DNA of 64,000 nt from Arthrobacter sp. JZ12 (lineage in GTDB: Bacteria > Actinomycetota > Actinomycetes > Actinomycetales > Micrococcaceae). Below, piece by piece: positions 33,117 to 36,567 of the stretch. Each line of letters starts with the position of its first letter. Positions within the stretch are counted from its first letter, which is position 1. A program made the translations under genes and the position numbers. The DNA is taken from NCBI RefSeq assembly GCF_035189165.1, contig NZ_CP045246.1, forward strand, positions 868,001 through 932,000, in the 5' to 3' direction. Under the pieces are notes generated by a model that saw only the letters and a program-made list of their open reading frames with translations, did no database searches and had not been told where the DNA came from.

Positions 33117-34154
33117 GTGTCCGACATTGCAAAAGAAGCGCAGTATTCCACCCTTTCGCCCGCTCTGGCGGTGGGGGATGACGAACCGGACCGCAACCTC
33201 GCACTCGAGCTGGTGCGTGTTACCGAAGCAGCCGCCATCGCCGGCGGCCACTGGGTTGGTTTCGGGGACAAGAACAAGGCCGACGGCGCAGCCGTGGACG
33301 CAATGCGCTCCCTGCTCTCCACCGTCCACTTCAACGGTGTCGTGGTGATCGGTGAGGGCGAGAAGGACGAGGCGCCCATGCTCTACAACGGTGAGCGCGT
33401 GGGTGACGGCAGCGGCCCTGAGGTTGACGTCGCGGTCGACCCGATTGACGGCACCCGCCTCACGGCGCTGGGCATCAACAACGCGCTGGCCGTGCTTGCT
33501 GTTGCGGAGCGGGGGACCATGTTCGATCCCTCCGCCGTGTTCTACATGGAGAAGCTGGTCACCGGTCCCGAAGCTGCCGACATGGTGGACCTGCGCCTGC
33601 CGGTCAAGCAGAACCTGCACCTGATCGCGAAGGCCAAGGGCAAGCGGGTGAACCAGGTCAACGTGATGATTCTTGACCGTGACCGTCACCGTCCGCTGGT
33701 CCAGGAGATCCGCGACGCCGGTGCCCGCACCCGCTTCCTCATGGACGGCGACGTCGCAGGCGCCATCGCCGCGGCCCGCGAGGGAACCGACATCGACGCC
33801 CTGATGGGCATCGGAGGAACGCCCGAGGGTATTGTCGCTGCGTGCGCCATCAAGTCCCTGGGCGGCGTGATCCAGGGCCGGCTGTGGCCCACCAGCGACG
33901 ACGAGAAGCAGAAGGCGCTCGACGCCGGCCACGACCTTGAGCGCGTCCTGTCCACCAATGACCTGGTCACCAGCGACAACTGCTACTTCGCTGCAACCGG
34001 CATCACCGACGGCGACCTGCTGCGCGGCGTCCGGTACCACGGCGGCAAGGTGCTAACCCAGTCGATCGTGATGCGCTCCAAGTCGGGCACCATCCGAGTT
34101 GTGGACGGCGAGCACCAGGCCCACAAGTGGGAGAGCTACGCGCGCATCAGCTAG
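33117..34154 (+). CDS. glpX: Class II fructose-1,6-bisphosphatase
   Basis: A 345-residue GlpX-type phosphatase hydrolysing fructose-1,6-bisphosphate in gluconeogenesis, the essential form in actinobacteria. Metal and substrate motifs are visible: VVIGEGEKDEAPMLYNGE (about residues 75-92), VAVDPIDGTR (about 104-113), and MGIGGTPEGIVAACAIK (about 237-253). GTG start at 33117 with a GATGAGG Shine-Dalgarno. A likely -10, TAGAAT, lies at 33071-33076, giving a short leader. Same order as Rv1098c-Rv1100 (fum, glpX, DUF4245). Confidence 0.95.
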   Translation: MSDIAKEAQYSTLSPALAVGDDEPDRNLALELVRVTEAAAIAGGHWVGFGDKNKADGAAVDAMRSLLSTVHFNGVVVIGEGEKDEAPMLYNGERVGDGSGPEVDVAVDPIDGTRLTALGINNALAVLAVAERGTMFDPSAVFYMEKLVTGPEAADMVDLRLPVKQNLHLIAKAKGKRVNQVNVMILDRDRHRPLVQEIRDAGARTRFLMDGDVAGAIAAAREGTDIDALMGIGGTPEGIVAACAIKSLGGVIQGRLWPTSDDEKQKALDAGHDLERVLSTNDLVTSDNCYFAATGITDGDLLRGVRYHGGKVLTQSIVMRSKSGTIRVVDGEHQAHKWESYARIS

Positions 34155-34172
34155 CGTGTTCTCGCTTTCGCC

Positions 34173-34258
34173 CGTTTAGCGTTAGCAGTCTGGCCATCCG
34201 ATAGCGGTAAACCCGTATCGGATGGCCTTTCTGCTATCGCGGGGCGGAATCGGTAACG
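34173..34258. repeat. 86-bp direct repeat, copy 1 (contains a hairpin)
   Basis: It matches 35323-35408 at 81 of 86 positions. It contains a perfect 12-bp stem GGCCATCCGATA/TATCGGATGGCC around 12 nt (34192-34227), so it may also serve as the glpX terminator. The two copies flank the AbiEi-like pseudogene. Confidence 0.9.
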
Positions 34259-34366
34259 CCGGGTACGACGACGGCGGCGCTCACTGGGCGGGCCTACGAC
34301 GACGGCGCCTGCACCTTGTCCACATAGCCCATCTCTGGCTGGTCCCGCTACACCGCGGCGGGCAGG

Positions 34367-35335
34367 GTGGATTGTGTGAATCTTCCCGCCATCTGGAGTG
34401 CATTGGACCGCCCACTCGATGAAGAATGGTCGCGCCGCTTGGCCAGGAGTGCGCGGCGAGGGAGCCGCATCCGCATCCGGCAGGGCTGCTACGTGGACGC
34501 AGCTGAGTGGAGCTCACTCGATGCGGACGGGCAGTACCGCCTGATCCTTTGGGCGGTATCTCGAACCTCCAAGACTCGACCCCTGCTGGGAGAGGAGTCA
34601 GCGGGCTTCCTGTGGGGCCTGCCGCTGCCCAACACGCCTTCGATGGTGGACGTCCTGGTTCCTCAGGGGTCGGGCCGCAGGTCAGGCAATGGCGTTCGCC
34701 GGATCGTGCGTCCCGACGTCGGGCCCTGCGCCGAAATCGGAGGATTCGCCGTGACTGGAAAGATTTAGACGGCGGTGGAGCTGGCCTTGCGTTATGACTT
34801 TCCCTGGGGCGTGGCGGTCATGGACCGGTTACTCAACGATGCGCGGTTGCCGGCCGAGCGTCGCGCGAACCCTGTCAGCAAGGACGACGTCGCCGCGCAC
34901 ATCGAGACTCTACCGACGGCGCGGGCGAGACGGCGGGCAGGTCGCGTTCTCGACTTCGCGGACGGTCTTGCCATGCTGCCGGGGGAGTCGCTCAGCCGAG
35001 TGCATATGGCGGCATGTGGCTTCGATGCACCCGTGCTGCAGCACGAAGTCTACGACTCTGCCGGTCTTGCGGGCACTGTCGACTTCTACTGGAAGGACGC
35101 CGGCGTTGTGGGCGAGTTCGACGGCCTGACCAAGTACCTGAAACCTGAATACCTGAAGGGTCGTACCCCTTCCCAGGTTGTTATTGACGAGAAGATCCGC
35201 GAGGACCGCATCCGCAGCATCGGTCTGCGCGTGGTGCGCTGGATATGGCCTACCGCTGTGTCGCCGGATGCCCTTCAGAGGTGCCTGCGGGCGGCCGGGG
35301 CACCGCAGAACCGGAAGCCGCTCGTTTGGCGTTAG
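34367..35335 (+). pseudogene. AbiEi-like / DUF559-like protein gene broken by an in-frame TAG
   Basis: The frame runs from GTG 34367 to TAG 34766-34768 (VTGKI-stop) and continues in the same frame (TAVELALRYDFPWGVAVMDRLL) to TAG 35333-35335, so one substitution, probably CAG to TAG, splits a ~322-residue protein. The N-terminal ~60 residues resemble the winged-helix AbiEi antitoxin domain (WSRRLARSARRGSRIRIRQGCYV). The C-terminal part has a DUF559/Vsr-like nuclease pattern (TVDFYWKDAGVVGEFDGLTKY, with EKIREDRIRSIGLRVVRWIW). Such genes are frequent accessory genes in Arthrobacter-like genomes. No partner toxin gene lies next to it. It sits between 86-bp direct repeats. Confidence 0.75.
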
Positions 35336-35408
35336 CAGTTTGGCCATCCGATAGCGGTAAACCCGTATCGGATGGCCAGACTGCTATCGCGGGGCGGAAT
35401 CGGTAACG
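35323..35408. repeat. 86-bp direct repeat, copy 2
   Basis: Starts within the last four codons of the pseudogene and continues beyond it. Its hairpin is longer than in copy 1: AGCAGTTTGGCCATCCGATA pairs with the strand ending at 35384 over about 20 bp with one G-T pair, consistent with a terminator. Confidence 0.9.
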
Positions 35409-35502
35409 GGAAGGGCGCGGGCCCCTTGGCCAGTAGCGCCTACTGGCCTCCCACACCTCGCTGGCGCTCGGCGCGGGTCCCTCGGCCAGTAGGCTTGAGT
35501 CC

Positions 35503-36567
35503 ATGAATCTCCTCATCTCTCCGTGCTGGAATGCTGCCGACTGGGACGCCGCCGTCAACCGACTGAACGGCCACCCGCAACAGCTGTGGGGCTGGGGACA
35601 GACAAAGGCCGATCACGGCTGGCGCGTGGAGCGGCTCCTCCTGAGCCGGAACGGGGAGGCCGTGGCGGCCGCGCAAATCCTGATCCGCAGCCTGCCGCTT
35701 CCGTTCCGGGCACTCGTGTACATTCCGCGCGGACCTGCATGTGCCGCAAGCGACGCACGTGCAGTCCTGGAAGCCGTGGCAGCCTACGCCCGCGAATCAT
35801 ATGCGGGGATTGTGCTCAGCATCGAGCCGGATTGGGACGCAGAATCCGAGTTCGCCGACGCCGTCCGTGCCGCCGGTTTCCGCCAGACCGACAACACCAT
35901 CCTGATACCGCGCACCCTCATCCTGGACCTGACGCGCAGCGAGGATGAACTCCTGGCGGACATGTCCAAGAAGCACCGCCAGTACATCCGCAAGTCGGGC
36001 CGTGAGGAACTCGAGTACCGCGAGGTGACGCGGGACGAGATCCAGGACTGCCTCGCCGTGTACAAGGAGACCGCGGAGCGCGCCGGATTCGGCATCCACG
36101 AGGACGGCTACTACCAGGACATCTTCGACAACCTCGGCCCCGCATCGCCCGTCTTCGCCGCATTCCAGGGCAGCACCATGGTGGCGTTCCTGTGGCTGTC
36201 GGCCAGCGAGTCCACCGCGTTCGAGCTGTACGGCGGTATGACCGACGAAGGTGAGCGCCTCCGCGCGAACTACGCGCTCAAGTGGCTTGCCATCCGCTCC
36301 ATGAAGGAACGCGGGATCACGCGCTACGACTTCAACGGGCTCCTGAACGACGGCGTGTCCAAGTTCAAGATGGGCTGGGCCAAGCATGAGGACATGTTGC
36401 TGGGCACCTGGGACAAGCCGCTCTCACCGCTTTACCCCGCCTACGCCACGGCGATGCCACTGGCCCGGCGCGGACTGTCGAAGGCGCGCAAGGCCGTGGG
36501 ATCGCTCCGGTCTAGGGCTTCGTCTCTTCGAGGCGGCCGCGCACAGGTCCCAACGCCCCAGGGTTAG
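35503..36567 (+). CDS. FemAB/FemX-type peptidoglycan bridge aminoacyltransferase
   Basis: A 354-residue protein with two GNAT-like domains. Visible: HPQQLWGWGQTKADHGWRVERLLL at the start, DMSKKHRQYIRKSGREELEYREV in the middle, and the FemAB C-terminal pattern YGGMTDEGERLRANYALKWLAIRSMKERGITRYDFNGLLNDG...FKMGWAKHE. These enzymes add amino acids from aminoacyl-tRNA to lipid II to build peptidoglycan interpeptide bridges; the amino acid used cannot be told. TAGGCT seven bases before the ATG suggests near-leaderless expression. The 3' end overlaps manA antisense by 56 bp. Confidence 0.88.
   Translation: MNLLISPCWNAADWDAAVNRLNGHPQQLWGWGQTKADHGWRVERLLLSRNGEAVAAAQILIRSLPLPFRALVYIPRGPACAASDARAVLEAVAAYARESYAGIVLSIEPDWDAESEFADAVRAAGFRQTDNTILIPRTLILDLTRSEDELLADMSKKHRQYIRKSGREELEYREVTRDEIQDCLAVYKETAERAGFGIHEDGYYQDIFDNLGPASPVFAAFQGSTMVAFLWLSASESTAFELYGGMTDEGERLRANYALKWLAIRSMKERGITRYDFNGLLNDGVSKFKMGWAKHEDMLLGTWDKPLSPLYPAYATAMPLARRGLSKARKAVGSLRSRASSLRGGRAQVPTPQG

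Follow-up and report, generated by a model that had tools for sequence, protein, structure and literature searches.

Introduction

The RAYT gene of REP/RAYT systems has a palindrome at either end and keeps its place, whereas the palindromes themselves spread (PMC2817692, PMC8049555). The locus described here was compared with these systems (REP/REPIN-RAYT, or REPtrons), and also with the AbiE type IV toxin-antitoxin systems, the nucleases Vsr and I-Bth0305I, homing endonuclease genes and the Pfam families DUF559 and REase_MTES_1575. It lies in a stretch of DNA of 64,000 nucleotides (the window) belonging to a genome of 3.31 Mb in a single contig (G000), and the relatives in the collection were Micrococcaceae, with Arthrobacter and its allies among the nearest named loci. 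The locus is a unit of palindrome, gene and palindrome. It probably embodies a relation of the REP/RAYT kind that was built independently on a sequence-specific nuclease, by which the spread of the palindromes would be driven. In the literature, no description of DUF559 or AbiEi associated with palindromes, REP, RAYT or inverted repeats was found; subscription journals and preprints were thinly covered, and novelty is unproven.

The interrupted gene and its neighbours

The gene was located at 34376-35335 of the forward strand, between glpX on the left (fructose-1,6-bisphosphatase class II, 33117-34154; PF03320, E 1e-138) and a FemAB-family gene on the right (35503-36567; PF02388, E 3e-33), both on the same strand. 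It comprises about 319 codons, from a GTG start at 34376 to a TAG stop codon at 35333-35335. As the original prediction had stated, the frame is open apart from a single in-frame TAG at codon 131 (34766-34768), and intact orthologues were found in two genomes of the same genus, G002 and G034. The remainder after this stop restarts at a GTG six bases on and stays open for 186 amino acids (34775-35335), so that the nuclease domain and its conserved acidic residues are retained. The dN/dS of the window gene against its orthologues was about 0.086, compared with 0.10-0.12 for the adjoining femAB, both being rough ratios since synonymous sites were near saturation. Because the two values resemble each other, the stop is either recent or the function is kept in part. 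Judged from its sequence, the copy in the window looks like a recently disabled member of its family, with the substitution pattern of a constrained gene.

Immediately 5' of the FemAB gene, a short near-duplicate (21/23 identical) was observed at 35414-35436 and 35470-35492. Relatives have similar tandem stretches ending CCGATAGGCTTAG ahead of the start codon of the FemAB gene, and this may be a duplicated promoter region.

Flanking palindromes of the window gene

The gene is flanked by two direct repeats at 34169-34258 and 35319-35408, which are identical at 84 of 90 positions without gaps and contain the 86-bp repeats (81/86 identical) that had been noticed before. Both are near-perfect, strong palindromes, with cores at 34179-34240 and 35329-35390. 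In RNA folding, the left repeat reached -62.1 kcal/mol (z -6.6 against shuffles) and the right one -69.2 kcal/mol (z -7.8). The right repeat begins within the last codons of the gene, as was also predicted, so the palindrome provides the stop codon of the gene.

The repeats had been described as terminator hairpins. This was not borne out: the hairpins are strong, yet they carry no T-tract, and the consensus of an intrinsic terminator (a G+C-rich stem and then a T-run) was found on neither strand in 34100-35520. Rfam gave no match up to E 1 in 33900-35700. A conserved T-T mismatch in the palindromes of this type (class A, the window's own) was considered as a feature and dropped, as it was not constant.

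The glpX-femAB interval in relatives

Twenty glpX-femAB intervals from same-genus genomes with a femAB orthologue were compared. In G002 and G034 the interval holds the intact orthologue (78-80% identical) with a palindrome on either side, and the gene is absent from this site in the other 18. Among these, the nearer relatives G017, G022 and G024 and the outgroups compared contained no such palindrome in the interval, which is short in G017 and most outgroups (about 85-140 nt), has different content in G024 and G022, and holds 3.3 kb of other sequence in G012 and G006. Based on this comparison, the gene and its palindromes co-occur at the site. The suggested tie between the repeat and the gene family was thus found again in relatives at the same position. 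Two outcomes had been named beforehand as speaking against the prediction, a repeat that is simply a widespread terminator and an uninterrupted gene at this site without the repeat, and neither was observed.

The G024 interval (L058) contains a perfect 17-bp inverted repeat, CGTCCCGATCTGCTCAG..CTGAGCAGATCGGGACG, with its arms about 100 bp apart, which is possibly a different miniature element.

Predicted fold and distribution of the protein

The structure of the intact G034 orthologue was modelled with a pLDDT of 94.4. Residues 2-196 of the model align with the AbiEi antitoxin of S. agalactiae (6y8q; Z 11.7 over 171 residues), and residues 197-310 with the catalytic domain of I-Bth0305I (3r3p; Z 10.5), NGO0050 (Z 9.9) and Vsr (1cw0; Z 9.7). 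E204, D236, E247 and K253 are invariant across 49 members. The protein is thus modelled as an AbiEi-type N-terminal part fused to a nuclease of the Vsr/I-Bth0305I type, and these folds would imply DNA binding and cleavage.

At the level of sequence the relations are faint. The search of solved structures by sequence profile returned nothing meaningful, and so the domains were placed by fold comparison only. Neither half of the window gene matches Pfam, and NCBIfam gave no match. Of the 49 relatives, 15 are matched by AbiEi_4 at E<=0.01 and up to 40 by the AbiEi models of PADLOC. A related nuclease-type domain connects the family to Pfam through a distant paralogue in the same genome (G000 321424), which matches REase_MTES_1575 (E 5e-6) and DUF559 (0.018); both values, however, are below the curated cut-offs, and the close relatives of the window gene match neither model. 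The earlier label "DUF559-like" is fair, if weak by sequence, and the predicted fold of the intact orthologue is clear.

The family is common in Actinomycetota, with matches at E<=1e-10 in 112 of 396 sampled genomes, many of which carry several copies. Searches of the phage collection and of viral contigs gave no relative, and those of plasmids two weak matches; on these grounds a phage or plasmid origin was rejected.

With the AbiE systems the protein shares the AbiEi fold over its N-terminal part of about 196 residues, and differs from them in the fused nuclease domain. That the gene is an AbiE-like antiphage or toxin-antitoxin system, as this fold and the PADLOC matches would suggest, was nevertheless considered scarcely credible: the window gene adjoins glpX and femAB and no AbiEii-type nucleotidyltransferase toxin, no viral relative was met with in the searches above, and defence would leave unexplained the private palindromes dispersed in these genomes.

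Matched private palindromes around family members

Among the paralogues whose flanks were read, nearly all were bracketed by a matched hairpin pair whose sequence differs by gene lineage. This was quantified in 76 loci from the genome scan, with mismatched pairs and 166 other ORFs of the same loci as controls. The similarity between upstream and downstream flanks exceeded the 99th percentile of mismatched pairs in 31/76 loci, compared with 5/166 control ORFs (Mann-Whitney P = 6e-14). When the upstream flank was compared with all windows of its own locus, the downstream flank matched it best in 40 of 73 cases, where 2.4 were expected (P = 5e-40). In a sample from the whole phylum 24/29 loci exceeded the same percentile, the true count being somewhat lower since a few of these matches resemble coding sequence or assembly duplication (e.g. 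L235). The median hairpin score was 28.0 for family flanks and 16.4 for control flanks (P = 4e-29). Repeat similarity tracked protein similarity (Mantel test, 0/999 permutations), and palindromes were related in 86% of the protein pairs at 60-90% identity and in none below 40%.

Across Actinomycetota, bracketing by a lineage-private palindrome pair is thus a well-supported tendency of the family, as an association. The position of the gene between two cognate palindromes is shared with REPtrons; here it is a strong tendency and is not established as obligate, because about half of the loci miss the strictest cut-off. The original prediction had seen in the window repeats the trace of units that were once tandem, with a remnant left at 34173. 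This found no support: members of the family normally have a palindrome on each side, and the arrangement is no leftover.

The distant paralogue mentioned above (G000 321424-322254, L053) was also seen to have its own, differing pair of flanking palindromes, of the AAAAGCGCCG..GTGGGG type.

Dispersal of the palindromes

The genome-wide dispersal was measured for four repeat classes. The class A palindrome also occupies intergenic places elsewhere in G000, and likewise in G002, G034 and G024, the last of which lacks the close gene; the repeat is limited to the three gene-bearing genomes and G024 (Fisher P = 6e-4). The class B motif occurred in 3-18 copies in the seven genomes bearing a class B gene, against a median of 0 across the 31 remaining genomes (P = 2e-6), and the co-occurrence persisted after the two flanking copies were left out (P = 9e-6). 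All these P values are optimistic, because the genomes are related and not independent. Among gene-poor genomes, G004 had four class B motifs, G057 three and G059 two, so that motif and gene do not coincide perfectly; the motif has 13 nt, and chance or in-gene occurrence is also possible at this length. The palindrome of Glaciibacter superstes was present at 21 sites, including the two that flank its gene, and was absent from six other genomes. Its dispersed copies are about 60 bp long with sharp ends in unrelated surroundings, all ten of those examined were intergenic by a simple ORF test, and they showed neither a target-site duplication nor any other direct sign of transposition. The palindrome of Paenarthrobacter PH39-S1 was present at five sites. 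A rough caller placed 31 of the 36 class A and B sites inspected, all of them dispersed copies, between genes. Most dispersed palindromes are solitary, with no gene beside them.

A palindrome that looks like a full class B copy was observed at L094 in G004, a genome without a close class B gene, and is perhaps an orphan relic.

Ordinary terminators or insulators that flank an accessory gene by chance would be hairpins, many of them intergenic, as these are. In addition to the missing T-tract, the left and right copies share lineage-private sequence, unlike the flanks of control genes, and their dispersal follows the presence of the gene. This explanation was accordingly judged very improbable.

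In a second explanation, the AbiEi-like part would bind the palindromes and thereby regulate its own gene and the genes near dispersed copies, with the nuclease acting elsewhere. The AbiEi family, which the N-terminal part resembles, autoregulates through binding repeats at its own promoter. Read by eye, the class A and B repeats also contain short units at regular spacing (GATAGC every 19 bp, and GAGCAA..GGAC about every 21 bp). Such a regulator, however, would have no need of a copy past the stop codon of its gene, and here the palindrome downstream proved no less constant than that upstream. In nine of the classified arrangements the dispersed copy lies between converging genes, and the sharp-edged copies at unrelated sites resemble sequence that was moved and not operators that evolved. 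Regulation of this kind is therefore regarded as unlikely, though it is the most probable of the alternatives.

Stationary genes and a possible case of exchange at the repeats

Class A and class B genes retain the same neighbours between species, from which it follows that the gene itself rarely moves. As regards the suggested spread of this accessory family, the palindrome is the dispersed part, and the gene is mostly stationary. In G000, two class A palindromes with 98% identity surround a gene for a bPH-domain protein of 127 amino acids (2990032-2990645; L009 3033-3646), and the counterpart in G002 (L023 1473-1593) has one palindrome and lacks the bPH gene. This pattern of one versus two palindromes is the single case found in favour of the proposed exchange by recombination at the repeats, which may occur.

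The same pattern would also be produced by a homing or selfish nuclease that cuts gene-less palindrome sites and is copied in by repair, since repair at a single palindrome would yield palindrome-gene-palindrome, and the closest fold of the catalytic domain is that of the homing endonuclease I-Bth0305I. Homing was nonetheless considered quite improbable, less so than chance terminators and more so than regulation, as the genes keep their neighbours between species and most dispersed palindromes are without a gene. The locus also departs from such systems in its architecture. The C-terminal nuclease fold is shared with Vsr and I-Bth0305I, while the gene here lies outside introns and does not split its own target. 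Taking the palindrome as the target, no split recognition site like that of homing endonuclease genes is present, and a full palindrome copy stands on each side.

Discussion

Set beside REP/REPIN-RAYT systems, the family shares more than the position of its gene. The palindromes are dispersed and mostly intergenic, here in four repeat classes of low copy number; gene and palindrome co-vary; and the gene is stationary while the palindromes spread. The differences are equally distinct. The enzyme is an AbiEi-nuclease fusion and not a Y1/HUH tyrosine transposase, the palindromes are longer (about 60-90 bp) and fewer (3-21 sites), and the GTAG (or CGTC) head is not evident in them by eye. Classical REPs usually occupy more than 100 sites. 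The Y1 transposase (PF01797) was absent from all 38 genomes of the genus, with positive controls working, and a RAYT was thus rejected as the mover of these palindromes. By analogy, the family appears to be an equivalent of REP/RAYT that has gone unrecognised, based on an unrelated enzyme.

The association of gene and palindrome is compatible with either direction of causation, and we infer that the nuclease is the spreader. In the mechanism we propose, the AbiEi-type part would recognise the cognate palindrome, and the nuclease would nick or cut it, probably in its extruded or single-stranded form. Repair or replication by the host could then copy the palindrome into new intergenic sites, and the same process would keep the two flanking copies alike. 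Occasionally, DNA between two palindrome copies would be moved, and homologous exchange between copies may contribute too, as at the bPH site. Whether Actinomycetota hold a second, independently evolved REP-type system, in which AbiEi-type/nuclease fusions generate and maintain lineage-specific palindrome populations with no transposase, is in our estimate an evenly balanced question.

Genes of this family, common in Actinomycetota and annotated as stray AbiEi antitoxins, carry no assigned job. The private palindrome of each gene offers a concrete, testable substrate and would explain a class of dispersed palindromes in genomes without RAYT. From naturally diverged pairs of protein and palindrome, new sequence-specific nucleases would also become available. 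If the nuclease does spread the palindromes, the REP way of life arose twice, on unrelated enzymes, and the host role of REP-type elements becomes testable through comparison.
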